DNA from: Methyloversatilis sp.
Lineage (GTDB): Bacteria > Pseudomonadota > Gammaproteobacteria > Burkholderiales > Rhodocyclaceae
Assembly (NCBI GenBank): GCA_016791045.1
Contig: JAEUNO010000036.1
Span: 1-64,000 of the forward strand
Reading direction: 5' to 3'
Length of the DNA: 64,000 nt
In this document: piece by piece, positions 1,381-62,773 of the stretch
How the letters are laid out: each line of letters opens with the position of its first letter
Position numbering within the stretch: the first letter of the stretch is position 1
Notes under the pieces: model-generated
The model's database searches: none
What the model was told of the DNA's origin: nothing
Seen by the model: the letters and a program-made list of their open reading frames with translations, nothing else
Program-made: the position numbers and the translations under genes

Positions 1381-1426
1381 GTTTGTGATTTCATTGATGT
1401 TAGTTTGACTCCATTGATGGCTCATT

Positions 1427-2270: not shown

Positions 2271-2272
2271 GA

Positions 2273-4646: not shown

Positions 4647-4648
4647 GG

Positions 4649-4667: not shown

Positions 4668-4787
4668 TAAGAGATAGGTATTTGCGTACGAGGCTTCAAG
4701 TGCTGCCTTGACTGGTCAAGCGCTCTCCAGGCTTCTGCGAGCAGCGCACTCAGACGCGCAGGCGCAGCAGTGCCGGCAGACCCCAGA

Positions 4788-5207
4788 TCACGATTGCCAC
4801 GGGTTGATGACCGCGACGCCGGCGGCTTCGAAAGGGCGGGTATTGCGGGTGGCGACCGAAAGGCCGTTCGCGACCGCGATTGCGGCGATGCAGGCGTCTG
4901 CCGTGGCGATGGCATATCCGGCAGCCCGCGCCAGCGCGATCCGTTCCGCATAGGCGCCTGTGCTGCCCAGGTCGAAGGGCAGGACGCGGCCGGCGAACAG
5001 CGGCAGAACGCGCTGTTCAAGATTGTCCTGCAACACAGAGCGCCGTTTGCCTGTCGGCAGCAGCGCAACGCCGGTGCGCAGCTCGGCCACGGTAATGGCG
5101 GACAGGAAAAGCGTTTCCAGCGCCTGGGCGTCGATCCACGCGATCACCCGGAGATCGGGCGTGTGACGCAGCGGCTCCGACACCACGTGGGTGTCGAGCA
5201 GGATCAT
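4788..5207 (-). CDS. PIN-domain toxin, FitB/VapC type
   Basis: This 139-residue PIN nuclease is the toxin of a type II pair; the family cleaves RNA with a metal-bound cluster of acidic residues. Visible elements are the N-terminal LLDTHVVSE (D5), SAITVAEL with a central Glu, and ATADACIAAIA followed by VATRNTRPFEAAGV near the C terminus. The ATG overlaps the antitoxin stop by four bases. Unlike the adjacent YoeB remnant, this gene has no lesion and is probably active when not bound by its partner. Confidence 0.9.
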   Translation of the reverse strand: MILLDTHVVSEPLRHTPDLRVIAWIDAQALETLFLSAITVAELRTGVALLPTGKRRSVLQDNLEQRVLPLFAGRVLPFDLGSTGAYAERIALARAAGYAIATADACIAAIAVANGLSVATRNTRPFEAAGVAVINPWQS

Positions 5208-5773: not shown

Positions 5774-8700
5774 GTGCGACTGTCCAAACTCAAACTCGCC
5801 GGCTTCAAGACTTTCGTCGATCCGACCACCATCCTGATGCCCGGCCAGCTGGTCGGCGTGGTGGGGCCGAATGGCTGCGGCAAGTCCAACATCATCGATG
5901 CGGTGCGCTGGGTGCTCGGCGAGTCGCGGGCGTCGGCGCTGCGCGGCGATGCGATGACCGACGTCATCTTCAATGGCTCGGGCACGCGCAAGCCGGTCGG
6001 GCGGGCGTCGGTCGAACTGGTGTTCGACAACGACCAGGGCAGGGCGGCCGGGCAGTGGTCGCAGTACGCCGAAATCGCGGTCAAGCGGGTGCTGGAGCGC
6101 GACGGCCAGTCGGACTACTTCATCAACAACACGCGGGTGCGCCGGCGCGACGTGATCGACGTGTTCCTCGGTACCGGCCTGGGCCCGCGCGCCTACGCCA
6201 TCATCGAGCAGGGCATGATCACCCGCATCATCGAGGCGCGGCCGGAAGAGCTGCGCGCCTTTCTCGAAGAGGCGGCCGGCATCACCAAGTACCGCGAGCG
6301 GCGCCGCGAGACGCAGGGCCGGCTCGACGACGCGCGCGACAACCTGGTGCGGCTCGACGACATCGTCGGCGAACTGGGCAGCCGCATCGAGCGCTTGCAG
6401 AAGCAGGCGGAAGTCGCCGCCCGCCACACCGAACTGAATACCCGGCTGGTCGAGCGCCAGGCGCTGCTGTGGGCGATGAAGCAGCGCGCCGCGGCGGCCG
6501 AGGCCGACACGCTGGCGGGCGACGCCGGCCGCCTCGAGAACGACATCGAACGCGAAACCGCGGCGCTGCGCCACCACGAGGCGGCGCTGGAGCGCATCCG
6601 AACCGAACATTTCGCCAGTTCCGAGGCAGTGCATGCGGCGCAGGCCGAGCTGCTGACCGCCAACGCCGAAGCCAGCCGGCTGGAAGACGATCTGCGGCGC
6701 GCGGCGGAAAACCGCCAGAAGCTCGCAGCGCGCATCGCCCAGCTCGATGGTGAGCTGGCGAACTGGCGCGCGCGCATCGAAAGCATCGAAAGCGACACCG
6801 CGCGCTGGGCCACACTGGCCGAGCATGCCGCCCACCGCATCGAACAGGCCGAGGCGCGGCACGACACGACACGCGCGCTGCTGCCGGAAGCCGAAGCCGC
6901 ATTCCAGGAGGCGGAGCAGCTGGCGACCGAGGCGCGGCGTGAGCTGGCGGCGGTCGAACAGCAGCTCAAGGTGGAAGAAACCCACCGCGCGAACGCTGGC
7001 CGCATGCTGCATTCGCTGGCCGGCCGGCGCGAGCGCATCGCGCACGATGCTGCGCAGTTGATCGAGCCGGACCGCGCGGCGCTGTCGCTGGCGCAGGCGC
7101 GGCTTGAGGAATTGCAGGCGGCGGTCGAAGCCGCGCAGCAGCGCATGCAGGCGGCGCAGATCGCGGTGCCGCAGCTGCAGGGCGCGGTGCGCAACGCGCA
7201 GGAGGCCGAGCGCGCCACCACCCGCACGCTGACCGAAACCCGCGCCCGGCGCGACGCGCTGGTCGAGCTGCAGCGCAAGACGCAGAGCGACGGCAAGCTC
7301 GCGCCCTGGCTGGCAGCGCTCGGCCTGCAGGACGCGCAACCGCTGTGGCAGGCCATCAAGGTCGATGCCGGCTGGGAGCTGGCCGTGGAAGCCGTGTTGC
7401 GCGAGCGCCTGGGCGCGCTCGACGCCGTCTCGCCCGACACACTGGCCGCCGCCGGTGCGGCCGGTGCCGCACCGCAGACGCTGACCCTCGCGCTGCCGGG
7501 CGCCGACCCGCGCACGCCGCTTTCGGCCGACAGCCTGCGCCACCGTGTGCAGACGCTCGACGCGCGCTGGGACGCGCTGCTCGACCTGTGGCTCGGGCCG
7601 GTGGCGGCCGTCGAGGGGCTGGCGCTGCCGGCGCAGGGGCGTTCGACACAGGGCGGAGCAGCCCAGGTCGACCGCCAGGGCCGCGTCGCCCAGGGTGCGT
7701 CGCTCACGCTGTACGCGCCGGACGCGCGCACGCATGGCGTGCTGGAGCGCGCACGCGACATCGAACAACTGGGCCGCGACATCGACAGGGCGGAGGCCGC
7801 GCTGGCCGAGGCGCGCGAGGCGCTGCGCGAAGCCGAAGCGGCGCTGGCGGCGGCACACGAAGAACAGGCGGCGGCGCGGCGCGAGCAGCAGTCGCTGACC
7901 CAGGCGGCGCACACCGCGCAGGTGGAACAGATCAAGCTCGGCCAGGCGGTGTCGCGCTTCGACGAGCAGCGCGCCGCACTGGAGCGCGACCGCGCCGAAG
8001 TGGACCAGGCGGAACAGACCGAACAGGCGCACGTGGCGCGCGCCGAAATCGAGATCGAGCGTGCACGCGAACTGATCGATGTGCAGCGCAACCGGCTCGA
8101 CGCCGCGCTGGAGGCGCACAAGAGCGCCGACGGCACGCTGCGCGAGGCGCGCTTTGCCGATCAGGCGGCGGCGCGCGAGGTGCAGGAAGCCGGCTTTTCG
8201 CAGCGCGAATGCGCCAGCCGGCTGACCGATCTGGCGAACAACCTGTCGGTCGCGCGCACCCAGCTCGAAAACGCCGAACTCGAATGCGCGCTGCGGCGCG
8301 ACGAATTTGCGCAGATCGACGAGCGCAGCATCGACGCCACGCTGCAGCAGACGCTGGACGCCCGCCGCGCACGCGAACAGGTGCTGGCCACCTGCCGTGA
8401 CACGCAGGAAGGGCTGGCGGCGCAGCTGCGCGACCTCGATGCGCAGCGCGCGCAGAGCGAGCAGCGGCTGGCGCCGGCGCGCGAGCGTCTGGCCGAGTGC
8501 CGCCTGAAGCAGCAGGCGGCCGCGCTCAATGCCGAACAGTTCGCTCAACGCCTGGCCGAAATCACGCTGCCGGAAGGTCGGCTCGATGCGCTGGTTGCCG
8601 AAGGCGAACGCGAAAACGTGCGCGAAGGCAGTCTGAATGGTGAAATCGCCCGCCTGAACCGCGACATCGCAGCGCTCGGCGCGGTGAATCTGGCGGCGCT

Positions 8701-9301
8701 GGAAGAACTGACCCAGGCGGCCGAGCGCAAGGGCTATCTGGACATGCAGTCGGCCGACCTGCGCGAGGCCATCGGAACGCTGGAAGATGCCATCCGCAGC
8801 ATGGACCGCGAAACCCGTGCCCTGCTCAAGGACACGTATGATCGCGTGAATACCGAGTTCGGCCGCATCTTCCCGGAGCTGTTCGGCGGCGGCGAGGCCC
8901 GGCTGGTGATGACCGGCGACGAGATACTGGACGCCGGCCTGCAGGTGTTCGCGCAGCCGCCGGGCAAGCGCAATGCGTCGATCCAGCTGCTGTCCGGCGG
9001 TGAAAAGGCGCTGACCGCGACGGCGCTGGTGTTCGCGCTGTTCCAGCTCAATCCGGCGCCGTTCTGCATGCTGGACGAAGTCGATGCGCCGCTGGACGAC
9101 ACCAACACCGAGCGCTTCTGCGAAATGGTCAAGCGCATGTCGGCGGCCACGCAGTTCGTGTTCATCAGCCACAACAAGATCACGATGGAAATGGCGCAAC
9201 AACTGGTGGGCGTCACGATGCAGGAGCGCGGGTGTTCGCGCGTGGTCGAGGTCGACATGGAACAGGCGCTGAAGCTGCGCGACGAAGCGCTCAGCGTCTG
9301 A
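5774..9301 (+). CDS. smc: Chromosome partition protein SMC
   Basis: SMC is an ATP-driven chromosome-compaction and segregation protein that works as a dimer with ScpA/ScpB. The 1175-residue product has Walker A GPNGCGKS at residues 31-38, a first long coiled coil, a hinge of roughly residues 505-660 and a returning coiled coil. The ABC signature LSGGEKALT is near 1075 and Walker B with its catalytic Glu (FCMLDEVDAPLDD) near 1098. The start is GTG at 5774, giving the conserved opening MRLSKLKLAGFKTF; there is no clear Shine-Dalgarno. It leads the smc-zipA-ligA cluster found in many betaproteobacteria. The coding sequence is intact. Confidence 0.97.
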   Translation: MRLSKLKLAGFKTFVDPTTILMPGQLVGVVGPNGCGKSNIIDAVRWVLGESRASALRGDAMTDVIFNGSGTRKPVGRASVELVFDNDQGRAAGQWSQYAEIAVKRVLERDGQSDYFINNTRVRRRDVIDVFLGTGLGPRAYAIIEQGMITRIIEARPEELRAFLEEAAGITKYRERRRETQGRLDDARDNLVRLDDIVGELGSRIERLQKQAEVAARHTELNTRLVERQALLWAMKQRAAAAEADTLAGDAGRLENDIERETAALRHHEAALERIRTEHFASSEAVHAAQAELLTANAEASRLEDDLRRAAENRQKLAARIAQLDGELANWRARIESIESDTARWATLAEHAAHRIEQAEARHDTTRALLPEAEAAFQEAEQLATEARRELAAVEQQLKVEETHRANAGRMLHSLAGRRERIAHDAAQLIEPDRAALSLAQARLEELQAAVEAAQQRMQAAQIAVPQLQGAVRNAQEAERATTRTLTETRARRDALVELQRKTQSDGKLAPWLAALGLQDAQPLWQAIKVDAGWELAVEAVLRERLGALDAVSPDTLAAAGAAGAAPQTLTLALPGADPRTPLSADSLRHRVQTLDARWDALLDLWLGPVAAVEGLALPAQGRSTQGGAAQVDRQGRVAQGASLTLYAPDARTHGVLERARDIEQLGRDIDRAEAALAEAREALREAEAALAAAHEEQAAARREQQSLTQAAHTAQVEQIKLGQAVSRFDEQRAALERDRAEVDQAEQTEQAHVARAEIEIERARELIDVQRNRLDAALEAHKSADGTLREARFADQAAAREVQEAGFSQRECASRLTDLANNLSVARTQLENAELECALRRDEFAQIDERSIDATLQQTLDARRAREQVLATCRDTQEGLAAQLRDLDAQRAQSEQRLAPARERLAECRLKQQAAALNAEQFAQRLAEITLPEGRLDALVAEGERENVREGSLNGEIARLNRDIAALGAVNLAALEELTQAAERKGYLDMQSADLREAIGTLEDAIRSMDRETRALLKDTYDRVNTEFGRIFPELFGGGEARLVMTGDEILDAGLQVFAQPPGKRNASIQLLSGGEKALTATALVFALFQLNPAPFCMLDEVDAPLDDTNTERFCEMVKRMSAATQFVFISHNKITMEMAQQLVGVTMQERGCSRVVEVDMEQALKLRDEALSV

Positions 9302-50267: not shown

Positions 50268-50831
50268 TCAGGCGAGCAGACGCGTGTCGATGTGCTCGAT
50301 CAGGCCGCCGTGCGCGCCGACCTCGGCCACCATGTGAGCCGTACCGCCCGGACCCTCCGGACCGTCGCCATTCCACAGGCAGACGAAGCACAGCGCGCCG
50401 CCGGCATGCGCGAACGCTTCGTCGACCAGCCACCGATTGCAGGCTTCGTAGGGATCGCGGCCGTCGGCCAGCGGACCCAGCGCTGTCGGCATGTCCAGCA
50501 CCGTTGCGCCGGGTGCCGAAAGCGCCCGGCGATAGCGTTCGACCCAGCGTTCGCCGTGCAGAGACGGTCTGACCGAGGTCTGCTCGAAGGTGGCGATGTC
50601 GAAGGGCAGCAGGATGTGGCGTCTCACCCCGCGTTCGAGGCACGCCTCCAGGAACAGCAGGTCACCGCCCGACGCGGCCTGACTGAACGCGATGTCGCCG
50701 GCACCTGCGCCGTGCCGATCGAGTGCGGCGGCGATCGCCGCCGCCGCCGCAGGCTCCATTGCCGGCGGAAAGCGCGGCGTGGCGCGGTCGGGACGGTCCA
50801 TCAGGTGACCGCTGAACAGGAAAGTCGTCAT
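50268..50831 (-). CDS. SLOG-like putative nucleotide-binding protein
   Basis: This 187-residue protein opens with FSGHLMDRPDR then PRFPPAME, and has SQAASGGDLLFLEACLERG, LLPFDIATFEQTSV and a C-terminal VCLWNGDGPEGPGGTAHM. The pattern of a beta strand, a GGD loop and a helix resembles the SLOG (DprA/LOG-like) Rossmannoid superfamily, whose members bind nucleotide signals and occur in immunity operons with TIR and CHAT proteins. The match is by eye only. It is the last gene of the TIR-CHAT cluster. The ATG has no clear ribosome site. Confidence 0.6.
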   Translation of the reverse strand: MTTFLFSGHLMDRPDRATPRFPPAMEPAAAAAIAAALDRHGAGAGDIAFSQAASGGDLLFLEACLERGVRRHILLPFDIATFEQTSVRPSLHGERWVERYRRALSAPGATVLDMPTALGPLADGRDPYEACNRWLVDEAFAHAGGALCFVCLWNGDGPEGPGGTAHMVAEVGAHGGLIEHIDTRLLA

Positions 50832-50871
50832 GGCACGCAGTGCAGCAGCAAAGCAGGTTCGATCCGCCGCA

Positions 50872-51447
50872 TCATGCCGTATCGCTGGTCAGTCCCGGTA
50901 CGTAACGATAGGCGCCGGAGCGCGGATCACGCACGTAGCTCAACAGTTGCCGACGGTTCGGTGCGCCGCCCGGGGGGCGGAGCGACACGTGCACCCAACC
51001 CGAATTCGGGCCCTTGGCCGGGTCGTAGCACTCGCAGATGATCTGGTCGAATACCTTGACGTGCGCCGCCACCCACTCAGCGAGCGCGATCGTGGCGACA
51101 CCGACGATTTCGATGTCGCATGCCTCACCGCGCGCATGCTGGCTGCTGCTGACCCAGCTCGACGGCTTGCGCTTCAGGGCGCGTTCTAGGGCCTGGCTGC
51201 GGAACACGCTGTTCGGCGAGAAGCTGCCGAACTTCGTGCGCACCGGCTCGAGCACCTCGCGCGCCAGATGTACTGCGGCGCGCAGCTCGGCATCCGACGG
51301 AAAGGCGTTCGGAATGCCCTGGCGCGATGCAATGTCGGAGCGGGTCAGTTCGTACAGCCGGAAGTGCGGCGACACCTTGTCCCGCGGCTGGCAGCCGGCG
51401 ATGTGCAGCGCGCCGAGCGCCACCTTTGCCAGATCGCGGTCGCTCAT
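50872..51447 (-). CDS. M15-type zinc peptidase
   Basis: This 191-residue protein has the M15/DUF882 fold. The metal motif S-x-H-x6-D reads SQHARGEACD (ligands H104 and D111), the third ligand is H153 in GWVHVSL, and E139 is a candidate general base. Relatives trim D-Ala-containing peptidoglycan peptides or act as phage endolysins. No signal peptide is visible, so export would need another route or lysis. ATG overlaps the stop of the CHAT gene (ATGA), so the two are coupled. Its presence between a CHAT protein and a SLOG-like protein is unusual. Confidence 0.8.
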   Translation of the reverse strand: MSDRDLAKVALGALHIAGCQPRDKVSPHFRLYELTRSDIASRQGIPNAFPSDAELRAAVHLAREVLEPVRTKFGSFSPNSVFRSQALERALKRKPSSWVSSSQHARGEACDIEIVGVATIALAEWVAAHVKVFDQIICECYDPAKGPNSGWVHVSLRPPGGAPNRRQLLSYVRDPRSGAYRYVPGLTSDTA

Positions 51448-54400
51448 GGCAGCTCCCGGAAGCGGTTGCGCATGCTGACCAGCGCCGAAATCACCGGCTT
51501 CAGTCCGCCGTCTTCACGGCTCGATGGCGCAGCATCTCCGGCATCGAGCAGTGCGACCATGAAATCGAAGTTTTCGGTGATCGATGCGCGCTCCCGAGGG
51601 CTGGCGCCGCGGCGAAATGCGTTCAGGTATTCGTTCAGCACGCGGTCGAATCTTTCATCGATGACGTCGTTGCGGACTGGCGCGCGCTTCGCCGGCTTGC
51701 GGGCCGGCGCGCGAGAACGTTTGCCGGCGGGTTTGTCGGGCGGCGCCGGCAGCGCTTCGGTGATCATCGCCAGCAGCCGGCAATTGGCGATGCCGGTCGC
51801 CAGCCACAGGCCGGGCTCGTCGCAATATTCGGCCTCGCACGCGACGCGGATGCGTTCCGCCTCGCTGAGCAACGTGTCACGTGCCCACAGCGGTGTGTAG
51901 TCCGGATCGCCCGCCGTGGCGAACAGGTCGGCCAGTGCGCTGTTGACGAACGGGTAGGCGCTGCTGTGGCCCTCCATTTCGAACGCGTCGCGATAGTAGG
52001 TGGCCATGTTGACCAGTGACTCCTGGCGCTCCTGCCCGGTGGTCACCAGCGCAAGCCGCTTGCATGCGGCACCCATCATGTTCAGGCGCTCCGGTGTGCG
52101 GGCGCGCTGGATCAGCAGATCCAGCTCCATGATGGCCGCGATGATCGAGGTGCGCAGCGCTTCGCGCAGGGCTTCGTCCGGCGCGCCGCCGGCGAGCGAG
52201 TCCAGCCAGCGTCGTCCCGCCAGGCGAACGCGGAAATTGGCGCACTGTTCGACCACCCGGATCGGGCAATCGCCCTTGCTGGCCGACAGCGCAGCGTCGA
52301 GATGTTCGATCGCCCGTGCGTAGTCACCGATCTCGCCCCACAGGAAGCCGAGCGCGGCGCGCACATCGGCGCGGGCCAGCCACCTTTCGCGGCTGGCGTC
52401 GGGCACGCGGTCGAACAGTGCGTCGACGCTGCCCTGCAGCCACCTGCCGTCGGTTGCGGACGACTGCATGCGCACCGACTCGCGCATGTTGTCGAGATGG
52501 CTGACCAGCTCGGCATGCGAGTGCAGCGGTCCGGCCGGCCGGGCGGTCGAGCGCGCGCCGTCACCCTGTGCGCGCAGCAGGCGGAAGCCCGGATCACCGT
52601 AGCACTGGTAGGCGCCGAATGTATTCGACTGCGGATGCTGCTGCACGCAGGCGCGTCGCGCCGCCCGCACGGACTCGCCGAAGGTGTCGCCGGCCAGCAT
52701 GCGCTGATAGAACGTGGCGGCAAAGGTCTTGGCCGCATCGTCATCGACCGCCCAGCCGGCGGCCACCACCGCCTTCACGCCCATGCGGATGAACTGCACC
52801 CCCAGATTGGCAGCCAGCGCGGGGAAGGCCTGCTTGTCCTGCGAGCGTGTCTTGCCGAGGTGACAGCAGTTGATGAACACCAGTTCGGGTACATAGCGCA
52901 TCTGTTCGACATCGCCCGGCGTGAGCAGCACGCCGTGGCCGATCACCATCCCCGACAGCGGCTTGTCACCCGCCGACGTCGGTGCGCCGTGGTGGCCCTC
53001 GACCCGATAGTCGTGTTCGCCGTGACCGGCCAGATGCAGGATGCGCCAGCGGCGACGGTGCAGGCTTTCGAGAATGTCGGTATGGGTCGCGTCGATGCAC
53101 GCATCGGTCTGGTAACCCAGTTCGGTCAGGCATTCGGCAACGTGCTGCGCTTCGTCGCGCGCGCCCGGCAGGTCGATGAACTTGTCCCAGCCTTCCAGAT
53201 CCGGGTGGCCGATGACCAGTGCCGACAGTTCGGTGCCGTGCACCGGCTGCGCCCGGAATTCCGGCGTCCTGAGGGCGCGCAGCAGGCCGCTGCGGGCGGC
53301 CGGCGGCAGCGGATTGGTCGCCCAGCGGTCTTCCAGCAACTCCCATGGATAGGCGGCCGATTTTTCGTCGAGCACCAGCAGCAGGTTGTGATTTTCCGGT
53401 GCCAGCTCCTTGAGCCGGTTGGGCAGCAGCATGTCGAACAGCGTGCGCGCCGCTTCGCGATTGCGACCGGGTTGCGTGCACGCGCGTTCGATGAACCTGG
53501 CGGCCAGCGACAACTGGCCCAGGCCGATGGTTTCCTCGGCACGCGCACGGTTGGTCGATGACACGAAGCGCAACCGCGTGTCTTCCGGGTCGGTGCATAT
53601 TTCCAGCCGGTGCCACCAGTCGCCGTCGCTGTCGAAGCTGACCCGGCGGCGCCCGCCGTCGCCCGCGTGCACGGTCTGCTCCGGCCAGCGCACGTCGGCG
53701 CCGAAATCGACCGATGCCAGCACGTCATCCAGCGCGTCGGCGGCATTGATGGTCACGTCCTGGAACAGTTCGATCAGTTGCAGTTTCGACAGGTAGATGC
53801 GGTCCCCCAGACCTGCGTCGATCAGCCGGCGATTGGTGTTCACGACCGCGCGCAGCAGCGCCTCGATCGAATCGCGCAAGGTCATGCCGCCGGCACCGCT
53901 GCCGATCAATACCGTGCTCAGCCCCATCGAACGCATGTCGGCGGCGCGGATCGGACGTTTTCCCTCCGGCATCTGCACCAGTTCGAAACAGTAGGTCAGC
54001 AGTGCGTCCGACACCGTGGATTCGAGCCGTCCGGGCGACAAGGTGCCCAGTTCGCCCAGGCCGACCACGATGGCTGCGACCGGACGCGCCTCGGGCGTGT
54101 CGTTGTAGAACAGGGCGCTGCTGCCGATCTGCCCTGGATACAGGCCCAGATCCATGCGTTGCGTCAGCGGCCCGACCTGCTCGCCGGGACGAGTCAGCTG
54201 CTTGTCGAGCGCGCGTTCGGCGCTGACGATGCTGTCGCCCAGATAGTGGCCCACCATCAGCGGATGCTTCACGTAGCTCAGGTCGCCATGGGTGAGCTGC
54301 ACCTCGAGTCCGGGCAGTGCAGGCGCTTCGGTGGGCTGCGGACTGCCCGGACCGAAGCCCAGACGCTCGACCTCGGCCGCCGTCGGGATGGCATCGAGCA

Positions 54401-57089
54401 CGGGGGACGATGTGCCGTGCACGCCGCCTGCGACCGCCGCACGCGCACCGCGCGCCGTGCCCACGCTGCGCGGCAGCCGCGTGGTCAAGCCCTTGAGCAG
54501 CAGATCGGTATAGCCGGCGAAGGTCTTGCGGCCGAAGTCGTAAGAACACAGCGCGTCGTGCGCGGTGTCCTCGGCGAAATACATCGGCACGCCGGGCAGT
54601 CGGCCGGACGCCCAGGTGACCGTGCCGTCGCCTTCCGGTGTGTGCGGAAAAACCAGCTTGCGACGGTTGAAGCGGAAGGCGCCGTCGTCGTCGATCAGCT
54701 CGTGGCCGCACACGGTTTCGGGCTGCACGCCGGCGACATAGATCATGTGCTGCGCATCGACCGCGCCGGCCAGCGCGTCCCAGGTGCGTCGCGCACCGCG
54801 CAGCACGCCCGCATCGGCCAGTTTCCAGCGCTCGCCCAGGCCGTCGCGCAGGCCGGCCCACAGTGCAGGATCGTCGTAACGCGGCGTCGATCCGTCGGCA
54901 GGGAAGGGCAGCAGTTCGACCAGCCCGGGGTAGCGCCGGACGATGTCGATGATGCCGTCGCGGCTGTTCAACAGATCGAGCAGCATCAGCTTGAACTGCG
55001 TCGGGTTGCGTCCGGTCAGCCAGCGCACCGCTTCGTGCGAGCCATGATTGGGCGTGCCCAGCATCAGCAGGCGGCTGTTCGGCAGCTCGCAGACGCGCCG
55101 CCACACTTCCGCGCCCTTGCGGTCGGCGATCATGGCGCGCACCACGAGACCGCCCATCGAATGCGCCACGATGTGCAGCGCCTGCTTCTGCGCCTGCAGG
55201 TCAGGCAGCCACAGCGTGAGCTGTTCGGCCAGCTGCGCCGCCGCCACCTGCACCGAATTGCGCCAGTCATAGGCGAAGAACTCGACCCGGTGGGTCTGCG
55301 CCAGATGCATCAGCAATGGCGCGTAGAAACTGTCGACCAGACCATCGACCTCGATCTGCGCCGCATCAATGCCGATCTTTTCCAGTCCGCCGAACGCCAG
55401 CGATTTGTAGTCCAGCCACACGCGATCGCCATCGGCCTTCAGCGAACTGCCCATCGTGCCGGGCAGCACGACGGCCAGCGGTTTCGGCAGCCCGCCGGCG
55501 CGGCTGCGCGCAATCGCGCTGCGCCAGGCCGGTGGCGTCGGCGGCCGCTCGCTGATCGGGCGAAAGCCCGCGTCGGAGCCGTCGGCGCGGGTCAGACCCT
55601 GCAGCAGCCAGTCGACCGAGCGGGCATTGTGGAAGTAGCTGAAGTGATCGACCGCGTCGCCCTTGTCCATCTGCTGCCGGGCACCGTGTTCCGGGCGCGT
55701 GATGCCGCCGAACATCGATCCGGTATTCACCACAAGATCGTGTTCGCCCTTGTAGAACCAGTCGGTCACGAACACCTTCAGCGCCGAAAGGATGGAGTGG
55801 CCACGTTCGATGTCGCCGGCGATCACCGTCAGATCCGACTCGGTGCGGGTCTCCGGATGGTTCAGCAGGCGCACGACGGCCGAGCCGGGCATCATCGCTT
55901 CCAGGCCGGGCAGCACGCGCGGGTCGGTGCGCTCGCGCAGCACGGCCGCCATGAAGTCGAGCGCCTCGGGTGCCAGCGGCACATGCTGCAGACCGGCGAT
56001 GCGGCTGGCGTTGAGCAGCAGCGAAAACCAGCGGTCCAGCCGGCCGGAGGCGAGCGTGGTACCCATGGCCGGGCAGGCGACGCGCACGAAGCGCGTGATC
56101 CGGAACTGCTTCGCATCGAGTACTTCGGCCAGCTTCAGCAGCGCGTCCCGATCGGCGGCGTAGTCTTCCTTCAGCCGCTTTTCGCCGGCTTCGTCCAGCG
56201 GTTCGATGTTCAGCTGCTGCGCGATCGACACGTCGCCGACGAACAGCCGCTTCAGCACCTCGGCGCGCAACGGGTCGCTGCTGCGCAGTCGTTGCCCCAG
56301 ACACAGCAACTCGCCGACCAGGCCACCGCGCGAGTGGCTGACCAGATGCAGCGTGGCGCCCTGCGGCATCGATTCGGCCAGTTCGAGCGCGTTCTGGATC
56401 GGACTGACGGTGAGTGTGCGGTGTTCGAAGGCATAAATGCCTTCGCCATAGATACCCGCCAGTCGCGCGCAGGCGGCGTTGCCGCGCGGGTTGTCGTCCG
56501 CCGCCAGCTTGCCGAAACTGCCGTCGAAGCTCGATGCCGTGCCATGCAGGAACACCAGCAGCGGCGTGTCGTCCGTCGCCTGGACCTGGTCGATCTTCGC
56601 GCCGAGCGCTGCGTTCTCGATATCGCAGCGATACAGACCCGGCTCGCGCCCGAGGATTTTCCGCTCGAAGCGCGTCGCGAGCCGGCGGGCGACGAATTCC
56701 TGCGCCTTGTCCTTCAGGTCGATGCCGAAGAATTCGATCACCCGGGTCGCCAGACCGAGCGCACTGCCCAGTCCGCGGCTGCCCGGGGTGTGTGCGTTCA
56801 GGTCGCCGATGTCCCACAACACCTCGCCATCGCTGCGCGTTTCGGCCTTCGAACCCGCCTCCTGCATCAGGTCGTCGGCGCGTATCCAGAGCTCGAAGCC
56901 GTTGTCGAGCGTGACCCGGGCAATCGCATCAGCCGGTATGACGGCCGGTTCGGCCGCTGCGGCGGCACGACTCCCGCCGGGTTGCACCGAGCCCAGCGGT
57001 GTGAACGTGACTTCCGACCCGGATGGTGTGCTGATCGGCGCACCCTTGCGCGCGCGAATGCTGAAACGCTCGTATTTCGACTGTTTCAT
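51444..57089 (-). CDS. Giant protein with two alpha/beta-hydrolase modules and a CHAT protease domain
   Basis: This 1881-residue protein starts at ATG 57089 behind a strong AGGAGGT. In order it holds a PGAP1/lipase-like hydrolase with LLVFLHGTASSF and nucleophile S253 (VSHSRGGLVGE), then a second LCAT-like hydrolase with VVLPGTMGSSL near 543 and S644 (VAHSMGGLVVR). A middle domain of unknown fold (about 900-1200) is followed by a CHAT caspase-like domain with H1356 (LHLAGHGE) and C1408/C1409 (FINCCHLGK). TPR-like helices lie near 1590 and a basic Lys/Arg-rich segment near 1790. All three catalytic sites look complete. CHAT proteases cut partner proteins in defence systems; here the hydrolases may be effectors on lipids. 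Substrates are unknown. Confidence 0.88.
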   Translation of the reverse strand: MKQSKYERFSIRARKGAPISTPSGSEVTFTPLGSVQPGGSRAAAAAEPAVIPADAIARVTLDNGFELWIRADDLMQEAGSKAETRSDGEVLWDIGDLNAHTPGSRGLGSALGLATRVIEFFGIDLKDKAQEFVARRLATRFERKILGREPGLYRCDIENAALGAKIDQVQATDDTPLLVFLHGTASSFDGSFGKLAADDNPRGNAACARLAGIYGEGIYAFEHRTLTVSPIQNALELAESMPQGATLHLVSHSRGGLVGELLCLGQRLRSSDPLRAEVLKRLFVGDVSIAQQLNIEPLDEAGEKRLKEDYAADRDALLKLAEVLDAKQFRITRFVRVACPAMGTTLASGRLDRWFSLLLNASRIAGLQHVPLAPEALDFMAAVLRERTDPRVLPGLEAMMPGSAVVRLLNHPETRTESDLTVIAGDIERGHSILSALKVFVTDWFYKGEHDLVVNTGSMFGGITRPEHGARQQMDKGDAVDHFSYFHNARSVDWLLQGLTRADGSDAGFRPISERPPTPPAWRSAIARSRAGGLPKPLAVVLPGTMGSSLKADGDRVWLDYKSLAFGGLEKIGIDAAQIEVDGLVDSFYAPLLMHLAQTHRVEFFAYDWRNSVQVAAAQLAEQLTLWLPDLQAQKQALHIVAHSMGGLVVRAMIADRKGAEVWRRVCELPNSRLLMLGTPNHGSHEAVRWLTGRNPTQFKLMLLDLLNSRDGIIDIVRRYPGLVELLPFPADGSTPRYDDPALWAGLRDGLGERWKLADAGVLRGARRTWDALAGAVDAQHMIYVAGVQPETVCGHELIDDDGAFRFNRRKLVFPHTPEGDGTVTWASGRLPGVPMYFAEDTAHDALCSYDFGRKTFAGYTDLLLKGLTTRLPRSVGTARGARAAVAGGVHGTSSPVLDAIPTAAEVERLGFGPGSPQPTEAPALPGLEVQLTHGDLSYVKHPLMVGHYLGDSIVSAERALDKQLTRPGEQVGPLTQRMDLGLYPGQIGSSALFYNDTPEARPVAAIVVGLGELGTLSPGRLESTVSDALLTYCFELVQMPEGKRPIRAADMRSMGLSTVLIGSGAGGMTLRDSIEALLRAVVNTNRRLIDAGLGDRIYLSKLQLIELFQDVTINAADALDDVLASVDFGADVRWPEQTVHAGDGGRRRVSFDSDGDWWHRLEICTDPEDTRLRFVSSTNRARAEETIGLGQLSLAARFIERACTQPGRNREAARTLFDMLLPNRLKELAPENHNLLLVLDEKSAAYPWELLEDRWATNPLPPAARSGLLRALRTPEFRAQPVHGTELSALVIGHPDLEGWDKFIDLPGARDEAQHVAECLTELGYQTDACIDATHTDILESLHRRRWRILHLAGHGEHDYRVEGHHGAPTSAGDKPLSGMVIGHGVLLTPGDVEQMRYVPELVFINCCHLGKTRSQDKQAFPALAANLGVQFIRMGVKAVVAAGWAVDDDAAKTFAATFYQRMLAGDTFGESVRAARRACVQQHPQSNTFGAYQCYGDPGFRLLRAQGDGARSTARPAGPLHSHAELVSHLDNMRESVRMQSSATDGRWLQGSVDALFDRVPDASRERWLARADVRAALGFLWGEIGDYARAIEHLDAALSASKGDCPIRVVEQCANFRVRLAGRRWLDSLAGGAPDEALREALRTSIIAAIMELDLLIQRARTPERLNMMGAACKRLALVTTGQERQESLVNMATYYRDAFEMEGHSSAYPFVNSALADLFATAGDPDYTPLWARDTLLSEAERIRVACEAEYCDEPGLWLATGIANCRLLAMITEALPAPPDKPAGKRSRAPARKPAKRAPVRNDVIDERFDRVLNEYLNAFRRGASPRERASITENFDFMVALLDAGDAAPSSREDGGLKPVISALVSMRNRFRELP

Positions 57090-57141
57090 GCCCTGACCTC
57101 CTGCTGTTGTTCTTGTGTCGCGCGCTGCCGTCGCCAGGCGC

Positions 57142-58329
57142 TCAGTTCGCGGCCGCCCCGGATGATCGGGACAGGGTGACGACCGACGTTTCACCGCTGT
57201 TGTAGCGCAGCGTGCCGGTCATCGTGCTGCTGTTGGCGACGCGCAGGCTGAGGCTGCCGGTGTTGATCATCACGTTGCCGTTGGCAAAGATGTTCAGCGC
57301 GAAATTCACGTCGCGCTCGTACGCCTCGCCCGCACCTTCGAAATGGATGTCGTTCACGCCCTGGCCGTAGGTCTGGATCAGCACGGCGTTGTACACCTGC
57401 CACACCGGGTGCTGCGTGACGTTGATGCGCGGGCTGCGCAACGTCAGGTCGTTGCCCTGTCGGGTCAGCGTCAGCGGAATGCGCTCGCCCTGTGCATCGA
57501 CCATGGTCCAGTTGCCGGTCAGGTCGCGCTCGGGTTCCGGTGCGGGTGCGGCGGGGACTGGGGTAGGGGTGGGCAGGCTGGCGACCGCAACCGGCGCGAC
57601 GGGTGCCGGAGCCGGGTCATCGGCGACGAACGGCGCCGGCGCCGGGGCGGGTTCGGGCGTGGTCTCCTGCTCGCCGACGAATACCGCGACGATGAGGATG
57701 AAGGTGAAGAAAATCCCGACTCCCCAGACCACCTTGCGCGCGGCACCGATGACGCGGCCGACCGGCTTCTTCAAGCTGTCCGGGAGCGGCAGATCGTCGT
57801 CGCCGGTGGTACTCCGGTGCGAGGTGGACTGGGTCGTGCTGTCCGTCGCCGCACTGCGCATCGGCATGCCGGGCAGCTTCTCAAGCACGCCGCACAACTC
57901 GCCGAAGTCATACTGCCAGCGTTTGTCGGTCATTTCGTGCGCATTGCGCCGGCCGAGCGCCGACAGCTCTTCCGGCAGTTCGGCTGCGTCGGGCATGACG
58001 GCACCGCCAACCAGCACGGGAATGACGCGCACGCCGCGCCGGGTCAGTGCGCGGGCAATCTCCATGCGTACCGGGTCATTCGGATTGTCGAGCCGGCGCT
58101 TGCCCTGGGCGTCGGTCATCGACAGCCAGTGCGGACCGACCAGCACGAGCACGACATTGCACCGGTCGAGCTCGCGCTCGATGGCGTCGACGAAGTCCTC
58201 ACCGGCCGCGATGCTTTCGAGGTCGCGGAAAACCTCCATGCCCGGGAACGCCTGCAGCAGATCCTCATGCAGCGTCTGTGCGTAGCCGCTGCTGTCCTTG
58301 CGTCGATACGAGATGAAAAGGCGTGCCAT
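57142..58329 (-). CDS. Membrane-anchored TIR-domain protein
   Basis: This 395-residue protein has an N-terminal bacterial TIR domain (ARLFISYRRKDSSGYA at 2-17, AGEDFVDAIEREL at 42-54, VLVGPHWL at 62-69). E90 in DPVRMEIARAL is the best candidate for the NADase glutamate. A TM helix at about 200-218 leads to a Pro/Ala-rich linker and a C-terminal beta-rich domain (DLTGNWTMVDAQG) outside the membrane. TIR domains sense signals and cleave NAD+ or recruit partners. GAGG lies upstream of the ATG. It is the first large gene of the operon, 52 bases before the CHAT gene. Confidence 0.87.
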   Translation of the reverse strand: MARLFISYRRKDSSGYAQTLHEDLLQAFPGMEVFRDLESIAAGEDFVDAIERELDRCNVVLVLVGPHWLSMTDAQGKRRLDNPNDPVRMEIARALTRRGVRVIPVLVGGAVMPDAAELPEELSALGRRNAHEMTDKRWQYDFGELCGVLEKLPGMPMRSAATDSTTQSTSHRSTTGDDDLPLPDSLKKPVGRVIGAARKVVWGVGIFFTFILIVAVFVGEQETTPEPAPAPAPFVADDPAPAPVAPVAVASLPTPTPVPAAPAPEPERDLTGNWTMVDAQGERIPLTLTRQGNDLTLRSPRINVTQHPVWQVYNAVLIQTYGQGVNDIHFEGAGEAYERDVNFALNIFANGNVMINTGSLSLRVANSSTMTGTLRYNSGETSVVTLSRSSGAAAN

Positions 58330-58340
58330 GCGTTATGGCC

Positions 58341-58469
58341 TCAGTGCGCGATGCAGGGGATGAAGGCCATGCGGCACACCCTCACGGTGTCAGCATCCGC
58401 GCAACTGCCTGGCGCCGTGCCATTGACGGAACGGTACTTGATGCCGATGCGCGAGGCGACGCTGCTCAT
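58341..58469 (-). CDS. Possible 42-residue leader ORF ahead of the TIR gene
   Basis: An ATG at 58469 with GGAG seven bases upstream opens a 43-codon frame (MSSVASRIGIKYRSVNG at the start, CRMAFIPCIAH at the end), and its stop overlaps the GAGG that serves the TIR gene. The arrangement fits a small co-translated gene or leader peptide. There is no known family and it could be chance, so confidence is low. Confidence 0.3.
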   Translation of the reverse strand: MSSVASRIGIKYRSVNGTAPGSCADADTVRVCRMAFIPCIAH

Positions 58470-58694: not shown

Positions 58695-59621
58695 ATGGAC
58701 TGCATACTGCTGACCCACGCCGATTGTCTCGGTCACCAACCCGGCGAGCGTCACCCGGAAGCACCGGCGCGGCTGACGGCAGTGCTCGATGGCATCGCCG
58801 CAGCCGGTCTGTTGCGCACCTGGCAGCGCATCGATGCGCCCAGGGTCACCCGCGAGCAGCTCGAACGTGTGCATCACCCGGCGTATCTGGATGAGGTGGA
58901 GAGCGTCGCGCCCGCGTCCGGCCTGCACAAACTCGATCCGGATACCGTCATGTCGCCCGGTTCGCTCGCGGCCGCGTCGCGCGCAGCCGGCGCCGTGGTG
59001 CATGCGGTTGATCTCGTGATGAGTGGCCGCACGCGCAGCGTGTTCTGCGCCACGCGCCCGCCCGGACATCACGCCCGCGCCGGCGATGCGATGGGTTTCT
59101 GCCTCTACGGGAACGTGGCGGTCGGCATGGCGCATGCGCTGGCGGCACATGGGATCGAGCGCGTCGCGGTGGCCGATTTCGACGTCCATCGCGGCAACGG
59201 CACCGAAAGCATGTTCCGGCGCGAGCCGCGCGTGCTGATGGCCGACAGCTTCCAGCATCCGTATTACCCGCAGGGCAACTTTCCGGAACGGCCCGGTTAT
59301 CTGCCCATGCGTCTGGCGGCAGGTGACGGCAGCGACGCTTTTCGCCGACACTGGACACAGACCGCGCTGCCTGCGCTGCGCGCCTTCAGGCCGCAGATCG
59401 TGTTCATTTCGGCCGGTTTCGACGCCCACCGCGACGATCCGCTGGCCAACCTCCAGCTCGAAGCGGCCGATTACCGCTGGCTCACGCACGAGTTGCGCGA
59501 CATCGCCGAAGCGTCGGGCAAGGGCCGCATCATTTCGACGCTGGAAGGCGGCTACGGTCTGGGCAATATCGGCGCCGCCGTGGCGGCGCACCTGATGGCG
59601 CTTGGTGATTGCAGCCGCTGA
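58695..59621 (+). CDS. Histone-deacetylase-family amidohydrolase
   Basis: This 308-residue arginase/deacetylase-fold enzyme shows HPEAPARL, RPPGHHARAGDAMGFC with the His pair, the metal-site DFDVHRGNGTE and SAGFDAHRDDPLANL. Bacterial members deacetylate polyamines or acetoin-related substrates; which one is unknown. ATG 58695 gives the usual start MDCILLTHADCLGH; the open frame from 58614 (TTG) is less likely. Confidence 0.9.
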   Translation: MDCILLTHADCLGHQPGERHPEAPARLTAVLDGIAAAGLLRTWQRIDAPRVTREQLERVHHPAYLDEVESVAPASGLHKLDPDTVMSPGSLAAASRAAGAVVHAVDLVMSGRTRSVFCATRPPGHHARAGDAMGFCLYGNVAVGMAHALAAHGIERVAVADFDVHRGNGTESMFRREPRVLMADSFQHPYYPQGNFPERPGYLPMRLAAGDGSDAFRRHWTQTALPALRAFRPQIVFISAGFDAHRDDPLANLQLEAADYRWLTHELRDIAEASGKGRIISTLEGGYGLGNIGAAVAAHLMALGDCSR

Positions 59622-59661
59622 GCCGCTACACTGGCCGTTGCAACGGAGATGGACTGACGGC

Positions 59662-60123
59662 ATGAATATCGAATGGTGGCACTGGCTGGTCGCGGGTCTG
59701 GCGCTGATCCTGTTCGAACTGGCAGTGCCCGGCATGGTGCTGGTGTGGTTCGGCGTGGCCGCCGTGGCGATCGGCCTGCTGGTGGCCGCCGTGCCGGCGC
59801 TCTCGCTGACCGTGCTGCTCGGAGTGTGGACGGCACTGTCCTGCATGCTGGTGTTTGTCTGGTTCAGGGTGTTCCGCACCGATCAGCACAAGACGCACGC
59901 CGGCATGTCGGATGGCGAGCAGATCGGCGAGGTCGGTCTGCTGGTCGGCGAGGTGACGCCTTATGGTCGCGGCAAGGTGCGCTTCCAGAAGCCGCTGCTC
60001 GGCAGCGACGTGTGGGAGTGCATCGCCGACGACACCATCGCGGCCGGTGAACGGGTGAAGGTGCTGTCGGTGGAAGGGTCGCTGCTCAAGGTGGGGCTGA
60101 TCAACAAGGGAGTTTCTGCATGA
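59662..60123 (+). CDS. NfeD-family membrane protein
   Basis: This short NfeD protein of 153 residues has two or three TM helices (WHWLVAGLALILFELAVPG and a second hydrophobic block) and a C-terminal OB-fold (GEVTPYGRGKVRF, GERVKVLSVEGSLLKV). NfeD proteins pair with SPFH proteins, and here the stop overlaps the SPFH gene by four bases. ATG 59662 is used. They probably organise membrane microdomains. Confidence 0.9.
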   Translation: MNIEWWHWLVAGLALILFELAVPGMVLVWFGVAAVAIGLLVAAVPALSLTVLLGVWTALSCMLVFVWFRVFRTDQHKTHAGMSDGEQIGEVGLLVGEVTPYGRGKVRFQKPLLGSDVWECIADDTIAAGERVKVLSVEGSLLKVGLINKGVSA

Positions 60124-60980
60124 GTTCGGGCATCGTCGTCGCCATCGCGATACTGGTTTTTGCTTTCGTCACGCTGGCCAAGGGGCTGCGCATCGTGCCG
60201 CAGGGCGAGGAGTGGATCGTGCAGCGGCTCGGCAAGTACCAGAGCACGCTGTTGCCGGGGCTGAACATCATCATTCCCTACCTCGATGACGTGGCCTACA
60301 AGGTGATCACGAAGGACATCATCCTCGATGTGCAGGAACAGGAGGTGATCACGCGCGACAACGCGGTGATCCGCACCAATGCCGTCGCGTTCATCAAGGT
60401 GACCGACCCGGTCAAGGCGGTCTATGGCGTGACCGACTTTTCAGAAGCCATCCGCAACCTGATCATGACCACGCTGCGCTCCATCGTCGGCGAAATGGAT
60501 CTCGACCAGGCGCTGTCGAGCCGCGACAAGATCAAGATCCGGTTGCGCGAAAGCATCGCCGACGAGGCGATCGACTGGGGTCTGACCGTGAAATCGGTGG
60601 AGATCCAGGACATCAATCCGTCGGATTCGATGCAGCGCGCGATGGAACAGCAGGCCAGTGCGGAGCGCGAACGCAAGGCCATGGTGACCCGCTCGGAAGG
60701 GCAGAAGCAGTCGATGATCCTGGAAGCCGAAGCGCGCCTTGAATCGGCCAAGCGGGATGCCGCGGCGCAGGTCACGCTGGCCGAGGCCAGTGCCGAATCG
60801 ATCCGTCGCGTCACCGTGTCGCTCGGCGAACAGCAACTGCCGATGATGTATCTGCTGGGCGAAAAATACGTGGCCGCGCTTGGCAAGCTGGGCGAGTCGC
60901 CGAATGCCAAGATCGTCGTGCTGCCGGCCGACCTGCAGGATGCGGTGGCCGGCATCTTTGCGCGGGCACAGGGCAAATAG
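60120..60980 (+). CDS. SPFH/stomatin-family protein (QmcA-like)
   Basis: This 286-residue protein has one N-terminal TM helix (IVVAIAILVFAFVTLA) and the SPFH domain, including PQGEEWIVQRLGKYQSTL, PGLNIIIPYLDDVAYK and GVTDFSEAIRNLIMTTLRS, followed by a helical C-terminal region rich in Ala/Glu. It forms large membrane rings with NfeD-type partners. It overlaps the NfeD gene, as in many proteobacteria. Confidence 0.93.
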   Translation: MSSGIVVAIAILVFAFVTLAKGLRIVPQGEEWIVQRLGKYQSTLLPGLNIIIPYLDDVAYKVITKDIILDVQEQEVITRDNAVIRTNAVAFIKVTDPVKAVYGVTDFSEAIRNLIMTTLRSIVGEMDLDQALSSRDKIKIRLRESIADEAIDWGLTVKSVEIQDINPSDSMQRAMEQQASAERERKAMVTRSEGQKQSMILEAEARLESAKRDAAAQVTLAEASAESIRRVTVSLGEQQLPMMYLLGEKYVAALGKLGESPNAKIVVLPADLQDAVAGIFARAQGK

Positions 60981-61027
60981 CCTTCGACGCGACGGACACA
61001 GGGCGAACGGATCGGGCACATCGGGTC

Positions 61028-61068
61028 GCCCGGGCGTTCGAAACAACGTTTCTGAGCGCTGCCCGGGC
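61028..61068. repeat. Nested inverted repeats after the SPFH gene
   Basis: GCCCGGGC at 61028-61035 recurs at 61061-61068, and between them GAAAC (61040-61044) pairs with GTTTC (61048-61052). The nested arms can form one long hairpin 47 bases after the stop, probably an operon end. No T tract follows. Confidence 0.45.
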
Positions 61069-61126
61069 ATGCAGCGTTTGACTGATCCGCATTGATCGAC
61101 GGTTCAGCTTTCCGGAAGGCTTCACC

Positions 61127-62773
61127 ATGTCGGACATCGAACGCGAATCCATGGACTTCGACCTGCTGGTCGTCGGCGCAGGTCCGGCCGGGCTGGCGGC
61201 GGCGATACGGGCGAAGCAGAGGGCCAGCGCGGCGGGCCAGGAGCTGTCGGTCTGCGTCATCGACAAGGCGGCCGAAGTCGGCGCGCACATCCTGTCCGGC
61301 GCGGTCATGGACCCGCGCGCGCTGACCGAACTGCTGCCCGACTGGCAGGCGCTGGGCGCGCCGCTGCACACGCCGGTGACACAGGACAGGATGTACTTCC
61401 TGTCCGAAACCGGCGCGCGCGCGGTGCCCGGCGGCTTGCTGCCGCAAAGCTTCCACAACGATGGCAATTACATCGTGCGGCTGGGTCATGTCGTGAAGTG
61501 GCTGGGCGAACAGGCCGAAGCGCTGGGCGTGGACATCTTCCCCGGCTTTGCCGGCAGTGCGCTGCTGTTCGATGACGACAACCGGGTGGCCGGCGTCATC
61601 ACCGGCGACATGGGCGTCGGACGGGACGGGACGCCGGGCGGCGCCTACCAGCCCGGCATGGCGTTGCGCGCGAAATACACGCTGTTCGCCGAAGGCTGCC
61701 GCGGTCATCTGGGCAAGCAGCTGGAGGCGCGCTACCACCTGCGCGACGGTGTCGATCCGCAGACTTACGGGCTGGGCATCAAGGAATTGTGGGAAGTGCC
61801 CGCAGCGCAGAGCCAGCCCGGGCTGGTCGTCCACACCGCCGGCTGGCCGCTCGACAACGACACCTACGGCGGCGGCTTCATCTACCACCTGAAGGACAAT
61901 CTGGTCGCCATCGGTTACGTGGTCGGCCTCAATTACAGCAACCCGTGGCTGTCGCCGTACGAGGAATTTCAGCGCTACAAGACCCACCCGGCTATCCGCA
62001 GTCACATCGAAGGCGGCACGCGGCTGGCGTACGGCGCGCGCGCCATCGCGGCCGGCGGCCTGCAGAGCCTGCCGAAGCTGGTGTTCCCGGGTGGCGCGCT
62101 GATCGGCGACGATGCCGGCTTCCTGAACGCGGCACGCATCAAGGGCAGCCATGCTGCGATCAAGAGCGGCATGCTGGCCGCCGATGCCGCGGTCGACGCG
62201 CTTGTGGCGGGTCGTGCGCAGGATGCGCTGGACGCCTTTCCGGCCGCATTCCGTATCAGCTGGCTGAGGGAAGAGCTGCACCAGACCCGCAACTTCAAGC
62301 CTTACATGAAGAAGGGACTGTGGCTGGGGTCCTTCCTGTTCGGCGCCGAGCAATTGCTGTTCAAGGGCAATGTGCCGTGGACGCTGCGCAACGAAGCCGA
62401 CCACACCACGCTGGCGCCGGCGGCGACCCGCACACCGATCGACTACCCGAAACCCGATGGCGTGCTGACCTTCGACCGCCTGTCGTCGGTCTTCCTGTCC
62501 AGCACCCACCACGAAGAGAACCAGCCCTGTCATCTGACGCTGAAGGACGCCGGCGTGGCCATCACCGTCAATCTGGCGGCCTACGAGTCACCCGAGCAGC
62601 GCTATTGCCCGGCCGGCGTGTATGAAATCGTGCGCGAAGCCGGCGGGCCGCGACTCCAGATCAACGCGCAGAACTGCGTCCACTGCAAGAGTTGCGACAT
62701 CAAGGATCCGACACAGAACATCCACTGGGTGACGCCGCAGGGCGGCGAAGGACCGATCTACAACGGGATGTGA
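61127..62773 (+). CDS. Electron-transfer flavoprotein-ubiquinone oxidoreductase
   Basis: ETF-QO passes electrons from acyl-CoA and choline-type dehydrogenases through ETF to ubiquinone. The 548-residue enzyme has the FAD-binding VVGAGPAGLAAAIRAK near residue 15, GAHILSGAVMDPRAL, the quinone-domain GGFIYHLKDN, and a C-terminal 4Fe-4S site with CPAGVYE and NCVHCKSCDIKDPTQNI. GGAAGG precedes the ATG. Confidence 0.96.
   Translation: MSDIERESMDFDLLVVGAGPAGLAAAIRAKQRASAAGQELSVCVIDKAAEVGAHILSGAVMDPRALTELLPDWQALGAPLHTPVTQDRMYFLSETGARAVPGGLLPQSFHNDGNYIVRLGHVVKWLGEQAEALGVDIFPGFAGSALLFDDDNRVAGVITGDMGVGRDGTPGGAYQPGMALRAKYTLFAEGCRGHLGKQLEARYHLRDGVDPQTYGLGIKELWEVPAAQSQPGLVVHTAGWPLDNDTYGGGFIYHLKDNLVAIGYVVGLNYSNPWLSPYEEFQRYKTHPAIRSHIEGGTRLAYGARAIAAGGLQSLPKLVFPGGALIGDDAGFLNAARIKGSHAAIKSGMLAADAAVDALVAGRAQDALDAFPAAFRISWLREELHQTRNFKPYMKKGLWLGSFLFGAEQLLFKGNVPWTLRNEADHTTLAPAATRTPIDYPKPDGVLTFDRLSSVFLSSTHHEENQPCHLTLKDAGVAITVNLAAYESPEQRYCPAGVYEIVREAGGPRLQINAQNCVHCKSCDIKDPTQNIHWVTPQGGEGPIYNGM

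Follow-up and report, generated by a model that had tools for sequence, protein, structure and literature searches.

We asked what function four adjacent genes could serve together in Methyloversatilis sp., where they fill positions 50268-58329 on the minus strand of a 64,000-nt stretch of one contig (the window, to which all coordinates refer). In transcription order they encode a TIR protein, an 1881-residue protein that we gave the working name CHATP, an M15 zinc peptidase and a SLOG-fold protein. We consider it probable, at about 0.6, that these genes form a mobile conflict cassette of the abortive infection type, Thoeris-like and triggered by an NAD-derived signal. The domains, conserved active sites, cassette behaviour and recurrent partners were established in this work, and the steps by which the cassette would act are predicted from sequence.

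Conservation in CHATP was counted over 108 nearly full-length sequences, the window protein included, and domain occurrence over 23 aligned members, using Pfam at E ≤ 1e-3. Above the family cut-offs, Pfam finds DUF7379, CHAT and TPR-S in the window protein, with a weaker Peptidase_C14 match inside the CHAT stretch. DUF7379 (E 6e-33) and CHAT (E 2.6e-30) are present in 23 of 23 members, and TPR-S (PF20308; E 3.5e-12, 47.3 bits against a cut-off of 27.6) in 19. The LCAT family is matched by 21 of the 23, the window protein falling just under the family cut-off, and profile matches of the second hydrolase in PDB are LPLA2 (lysosomal phospholipase A2, 2e-5) and LCAT (8e-5). The triad of hydrolase 1 (Ser288, Asp486 and His517) is kept in 108/108 sequences, as are Asp856 and His879 of hydrolase 2, whose Ser679 is kept in 104/108; His1391, Cys1443 and Cys1444 of CHAT are likewise kept in all 108. 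Both hydrolases and the CHAT protease are thus strongly constrained. Residue numbers follow the open frame, which extends to 57194; the true start is residue 36, an ATG at 57089 with AGGAGG before it.

No Pfam family was found in residues 955-1262 of the window CHATP, and the sole PDB profile match of this stretch is the N-domain of leucyl aminopeptidase (E 0.0023); Peptidase_M17_N was matched in two of the 23 members. A structure model of the stretch (pLDDT 86.5) gave 251 PDB matches at E ≤ 1e-3 in Foldseek. Among the best 50 of the 251, about 35 are by title macro domains or M17 aminopeptidases, and most of the others are designed serine hydrolases. The macro-fold matches include M17 N-domains, macroH2A and PARP9 macro 2, with query-normalised TM scores of 0.33-0.45. 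As modelled, residues 955-1262 have the macro fold and by fold belong to the macro superfamily.

The TIR protein matches Pfam TIR_2 (E 2e-13) and has one strongly hydrophobic stretch by hydropathy, at residues 200-218, followed by a C-terminal domain that has no Pfam match and is predicted to be periplasmic. In PDB, the protein matched 17 chains, all of the NAD+ hydrolase SARM1 (best E 6e-5). Its DPVRMEI motif aligns with DWVHKEI of SARM1, so that Glu90 stands opposite the SARM1 Glu, which we take to be the catalytic one. This Glu is present in 17 of 19 aligned TIR matches, the remaining two (L119 and L132) being partial matches.

In the third protein, Peptidase_M15_3 is matched above its cut-off (E 1e-5, 26 bits against 23.2), and a comparison with PDB gave no match at E ≤ 0.1. 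The metal motifs His-x6-Asp and WVH both occur in 40 of 42 matches, the other two being fragments, and the metal residues are present also in loci L084, L102 and L114. By eye, neither the window protein nor the N-termini of relatives outside the genus show a signal peptide. We considered a lipoprotein because of an IAGC near the N-terminus, and rejected it, as relatives outside the genus are without IAGC. Lacking a signal peptide, the M15 enzyme would reach the wall only after membrane damage, like an endolysin. Beside CHATP relatives, a GH46 protein with a peptidoglycan-binding domain adjoins CHATP in L038, GH46 profile matches occur in L039 and L044, and an N-acetylmuramidase with a peptidoglycan-binding domain lies beside CHATP in L122. 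Finding unrelated wall hydrolases repeatedly next to CHATP is the strongest indication that cleaving the wall is part of what the system does.

A further protein, which we named c26, has 381 residues and is encoded directly downstream of CHATP (L061:5663-6808), with profile matches in L062, L063, L108 and L120. Compared with M15 and GH46 enzymes, it shows only weak resemblance (hhalign probability 8.5 for M15 and 27.6 for GH46). It has no Pfam and no PDB match, and its family was left unassigned.

The fourth protein has no Pfam match, and its profile gave chance-level matches only in PDB (best E 0.057, an esterase). Its structure model (pLDDT 91.6) has only three Foldseek matches at E ≤ 1e-3, namely YpsA (E 7e-5, TM 0.58), ShosA and DprA. 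On this model, the protein has the SLOG (YpsA/DprA/LOG) fold and belongs to that superfamily. In several relatives, SLOG forms the end of a protein of about 660 residues with TPR-S in the middle, as found by Pfam in L048 and L057.

The features are collected in Table 1. The M15 gene overlaps the CHATP stop by 4 bases; 52 bases separate TIR from CHATP, 40 separate M15 from SLOG, and 102 lie between SLOG and the next minus-strand gene, a histidine kinase gene accompanied by its response regulator. Upstream of the cassette, a histone-deacetylase-like gene lies on the opposite strand. An earlier note on this DNA had described four closely spaced minus-strand genes for a membrane TIR protein, a protein with two lipase-like serine sites and a CHAT Cys-His site, an M15 zinc peptidase and a SLOG-like protein, and each of these assignments was borne out by the matches above. 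It had missed TPR-S and the macro-fold domain of CHATP, and its cluster end at 58469 lies about 140 bases too far, because the TIR frame starts at 58329.

Table 1. Genes of the cassette and domains of CHATP in the window.
Feature	Position	Strand	Description
TIR protein	57142..58329	-	395 aa: TIR ~1-139, predicted catalytic Glu90, hydrophobic 200-218, C-terminal domain
CHATP	51444..57089	-	1881 aa: hydrolase 1, hydrolase 2, macro-fold, CHAT, TPR-S
Alpha/beta hydrolase 1 (DUF7379)	55635..56558, ends approximate	-	Ser288-Asp486-His517
Alpha/beta hydrolase 2 (LCAT/LPLA2-like)	54540..55487, ends approximate	-	Ser679-Asp856-His879
Macro-fold domain, candidate ADP-ribose-type ligand sensor	53685..54332	-	PDB profile, structure model, Foldseek
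CHAT protease domain	52629..53456	-	His1391, Cys1443/1444; Pfam CHAT
TPR-S (tetratricopeptide repeats-sensor) domain	51936..52325	-	Pfam PF20308
M15 zinc peptidase	50872..51447	-	191 aa; His104, Asp111, His153; Pfam M15_3
SLOG-fold protein (P0001)	50268..50831	-	187 aa; model and Foldseek

Within the genus, the four genes behave as a unit. The histidine kinase gene is found in 13 of 13 genomes, and six of them (the window, G005, G597, G599, G600 and G601) carry the cassette, with its gene order unchanged, between the kinase and deacetylase genes. In six others (G595, G182, G596, G070, G118 and G152) the site is empty and the two flanking genes adjoin, 136-1779 bases apart; in G598, the stretch examined yielded no deacetylase gene. 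A search for CHATP in empty-site genomes, which covered G182, G118, G070 and G152 and not G595 or G596, found another version (TIR, CHATP, c26) elsewhere in the genome in the first three and a caspase version in G152. A junction search revealed no shared repeat of at least 10 bases at the cassette ends. Counting its own genome, CHATP occurs in 52 of 199 genomes of the family (E ≤ 1e-50) and in 4 of 398 of the phylum (E ≤ 1e-60). The possibility, raised in the earlier note as its refuting case, that these are conserved housekeeping genes is contradicted by the empty site and this patchy distribution.

At least 567 CHATP-related stretches were found in the genome collection. The nearest named relatives among the matches listed are in Methyloversatilis, 93-95% identical. 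CHATP is also carried on eight plasmid records (E ≤ 1e-50), and in one of three inspected it lies beside restriction-modification and recombinase genes. On Paracoccus plasmids, a protein of about 1090 residues (L178:2169-5453 and L180:2282-5527) precedes CHATP and may be another partner; its function was left unassigned, with a weak SBP_bac_3 match in one of the two.

We then compared the partners of CHATP across loci, using profiles built from first neighbours (caspase, TIR, SLOG, M15, c26 and GH46). The scan covered 120 loci (40 family-genome regions, 79 named loci and the window); once 4 duplicates had been taken out, 116 remained, 95 of them with sufficient flank, and a partner was counted if it lay on the same strand within 1.5 kb. 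A caspase lies upstream of CHATP in 45 of the 95 loci and downstream in one, and its His and Cys motifs are kept in 53/53 caspase matches. TIR is upstream in 10 and downstream in 2; of the ten loci with an upstream TIR, six are close copies of the window cassette in Methyloversatilis. SLOG is near CHATP in 25 loci (19 upstream, 6 downstream), and M15 is downstream in 35 and upstream in none; c26 is downstream in 5 and upstream in 1, and GH46 upstream in 2. The commonest combination is caspase-CHATP-M15, found in 20 loci, with SLOG upstream in six more. Thus the co-occurrence with TIR, SLOG and M15 genes that the earlier note had proposed to look for does recur in other genomes, but the commonest partner is caspase, not TIR.

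As a genome-wide control, we located the partner families in the 199 family genomes and counted a gene as near if it lay within 3.5 kb of CHATP. At E ≤ 1e-80, caspase occurs in 31 genomes, all of them CHATP-positive; 23 of 32 genes are near CHATP, and the other nine lie beyond 3.5 kb, some on other contigs. Draft assemblies are common among the family genomes, so genes placed on a different contig may in fact lie close to CHATP. At E ≤ 1e-30, CHATP is present in 36 of 38 caspase genomes, with 25 of 42 caspase genes near it. The M15 subfamily (E ≤ 1e-20) was found only in the neighbourhood of CHATP, with 9/9 genes near and none elsewhere. SLOG (E ≤ 1e-15) is looser: 24 of 31 genomes are CHATP-positive, but only 6 of 33 genes are near. 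One-sided Fisher tests gave 1e-22 and 1e-24 for the stricter and wider caspase sets, 6e-11 for SLOG and 3e-6 for M15.

On a FastTree tree of the 108 CHATP sequences, the TIR label (14 rows, three of them, L033, L052 and L099, set by hand) needs 6 changes against 13.4 when shuffled, and the caspase label needs 15 against 35.5. Gain and loss are indistinguishable on this tree, for which FastTree warns of long branches.

Other neighbours were seen in single lineages, partly through a Pfam run on the neighbours of six partnerless loci (L116, L122, L135, L136, L142 and L147) together with L036 and L099. A ThsB-like TIR stands upstream of CHATP in L052 (PADLOC, E 3e-37). L099 has a TPR-S protein with an unnamed N-domain and a SIR2-TIR, its SIR2 match below cut-off, and L122 has a DUF4062-nSTAND1 protein. 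Proteases lie beside CHATP in L135 (clostripain, C11) and in L136 and L142 (trypsin-like, both below cut-off). The neighbours of L147 include a transglutaminase-elicitor match, and those of L116 and L036 gave no Pfam family. A 1347-aa gene near some relatives, for example in L038, was considered as part of the cassette and rejected, as it encodes a PAS-GGDEF-EAL protein. Near CHATP relatives we also noted a TIR protein of 1001 aa that carries TPR and matches AAA weakly (L034:2591-5596) and a 1339-aa protein whose opening stretch looks P-loop-like by eye (L033:1518-5537). In L050, a 1193-aa CHATP-matching frame (1587-5168) lies upstream of a caspase and a full CHATP, making two CHATP-like genes.

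Since CHATP combines a macro fold with TPR-S, the most economical reading is that a messenger made by TIR acts on CHATP. The TIR protein probably serves to make a signal rather than to inflict damage in parallel. We propose that the membrane-anchored TIR would sense an invasion-linked cue, perhaps via its C-terminal domain, and cleave NAD+ to yield an ADP-ribose-type messenger, whose binding by the macro domain, by TPR-S or by both would switch CHATP on. The CHAT protease could then cut proteins, be it CHATP itself, the M15 enzyme or host targets, and the two hydrolases, one of them LCAT/LPLA2-like, would attack membrane lipids. Once the membrane is breached, the leaderless M15 may reach peptidoglycan, and the infected cell would lyse or stop. 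The caspase found in place of TIR in about half of the well-flanked relatives could be a transducing protease or a second executioner, and SLOG may be an accessory nucleotide-ligand sensor or a processing enzyme.

Known TIR systems offer parallels to this scheme. PMC12847820 describes TIR-made messengers acting on several kinds of effector, 3'cADPR on SIR2, His-ADPR on TM-macro and N7-cADPR on caspase-like protease effectors. In Thoeris types I, II and IV, a TIR NADase gene stands beside a separate effector gene; here TIR is joined to a macro fold and a caspase-fold protease, and the L052 relative has a ThsB-like TIR. Unlike Thoeris, the cassette has no ThsA-type effector, as CHATP is without a ThsA match in PADLOC and NCBIfam; a single CHATP chain carries two hydrolases, macro, CHAT and TPR-S, and a wall peptidase and a SLOG gene are added. 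The ThsB and ThcB4 models match the window TIR over about residues 1-70 only (ThcB4 45.8 bits against a cut-off of 220). PMC7159879 points to other predicted conflict systems, among them the vWA-MoxR (VMAP) systems, in which caspase is always paired with a neighbouring alpha/beta hydrolase, and to peptidoglycan-attacking effectors in System 3 of Kaur et al. 2020. In contrast to these, Pfam shows no vWA, MoxR or VMAP in the four cassette proteins, a search that did not take in the surroundings of the loci. CHATP matches no PADLOC or NCBIfam model, which agrees with the earlier impression that the gene set fits no named system.

Several observations weigh against the conflict-cassette reading. 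Ligand binding by the macro domain or TPR-S is a predicted function; no TPR-S match was found in 4 of the 23 CHATP members, and the macro loop residues are partly kept (His983 in 103, Gly1098 in 107, Gly1100 in 92 and Gly1103 in 81 of 108). The top Foldseek match of the macro-fold model is a designed serine hydrolase, whose scaffold is presumably macro-like. In 25 of the 95 well-flanked loci, no partner of the six profiled types was found within the stretch. Most of these loci belong to distant members, and CHATP may therefore act by itself or with partners of other kinds. The Fisher values overstate independence, because the genomes are related. No phage record carries CHATP at E ≤ 1e-20, and no defence island was seen in the window, where the genes scanned around the cassette are ordinary core genes and one transposase.

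The association with known defence genes is also weak. Of the 461 genes called in 63 loci, a random sample of 110 was taken, of which the first 90 were run; 5 of 90 were known defence genes against 0 of 68 in the control (one-sided p 0.057), with five unrelated defence family types counted as five proteins. The control comprised 68 of 98 genes from one genus only, the 30 left out including an SMC-like gene and insertion-site core genes. Among the 25 best of 104 matched families, the neighbour matches below E 1e-40 are PglZ, BrxL, type I specificity, LmuA and Avs1a; the best control match is a generic ATPase model at 3e-20.

One explanation, compatible with the conflict-cassette reading, is that the locus belongs to an already described class of TPR-S predicted immune systems and is not new, which we regard as possible. 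Such systems were reportedly outlined by Burroughs and Aravind (J Bacteriol 2020), and the domain name is said to come from their line of work; sensing of an NAD+-derived signal is the literature's prediction for them. PF20308 in CHATP places it with the TPR-S proteins, and TPR-S occurs in partner proteins of relatives as well, with SLOG behind it in L048 and L057 and with the unnamed N-domain in L099. The two hydrolases, the macro domain and the wall-hydrolase partner would set the present cassette apart from the systems reportedly outlined there. No description of this arrangement was found in the literature searched, which did not reach that paper, and within the same literature we found no printed source for the macro domain, the wall-hydrolase slot or the exchange of caspase and TIR.

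A second explanation is that TIR itself kills by depleting NAD+, with CHATP and M15 as independent executioners or regulators and no ADP-ribose messenger. The resemblance of TIR to SARM1, together with its own membrane anchor and C-terminal domain, would fit, and PMC12847820 reports killing through NAD+ depletion in several TIR systems. However, CHATP holds the macro fold and TPR-S, pairs with caspase more than with TIR, and in one lineage lies beside a ThsB-like TIR. We consider this explanation unlikely.

The enzymes directed at lipids and wall, the membrane sensor topology and the position beside a core histidine kinase and response regulator pair could instead point to envelope stress or wall remodelling. 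TIR would then sense envelope damage, the lipase, protease and M15 would act in repair, turnover or developmental lysis, and there would be no anti-phage role. The kinase is, however, present in every genus genome and the cassette at the site in only six, and some CHATP genes are plasmid-borne. The partners seen across loci, namely caspase, SIR2-TIR, DUF4062-nSTAND1 and ThsB-like proteins, are typical of conflict systems. An envelope role seems quite improbable. Contact-dependent antibacterial effectors, for example type VI secretion cargo, are the least plausible account: lipases, peptidoglycan peptidases and NADases are indeed common among secreted effectors, but the TPR-S, CHAT and caspase partners appear unlike secreted cargo, and type VI cargo was rejected as the type VI family PF05936 was found in 0 of 13 genus genomes with a positive E. 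coli control.

Within the conflict-cassette reading, we tentatively speculate that the system is a bacterial counterpart of pyroptosis with the layout of a phage lysis kit. An alarm relayed by TIR or caspase would activate one chain that damages the membrane through its two lipase-like hydrolases and digests the cell through CHAT. A dedicated leaderless wall hydrolase, M15 here and GH46 or a muramidase beside CHATP in other lineages, would thereby gain access to peptidoglycan and lyse the cell. In this scheme, TIR and caspase would replace one another as modules upstream of a single effector. If the conflict-cassette reading is true, one effector with several enzyme activities would take its input from either TIR signalling or caspases, and NAD-signal immunity would count peptidoglycan hydrolysis and LCAT/LPLA2-like lipases among its weapons. 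Although relatives of CHATP are common, neither PADLOC nor NCBIfam has a model for CHATP. The cassette is directly testable, since its active sites are separable and the genus offers natural genomes that carry it at the site and others that lack it.

Further from the cassette, the window contains a DDE transposase gene (22-1278) in a stretch of lower G+C (0.51-0.54 over 1-4000), followed by a short glycosyltransferase frame (3115-3765). An SMC-type protein of 1175 aa is encoded at 5774-9301, for the most part within a stretch with G+C up to 0.73 and a strong skew of A over T; a 1249-aa minus-strand frame without a Pfam match overlaps it. Past the deacetylase gene, 59605-62773 encodes a small membrane protein (NfeD-like by eye), a Band_7 protein and a flavoprotein-dehydrogenase-like protein (by eye). 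In 10 of the 11 genus stretches examined, the first two have homologues on the deacetylase side; the third has one in 6 of the 11, and four others end before the gene.

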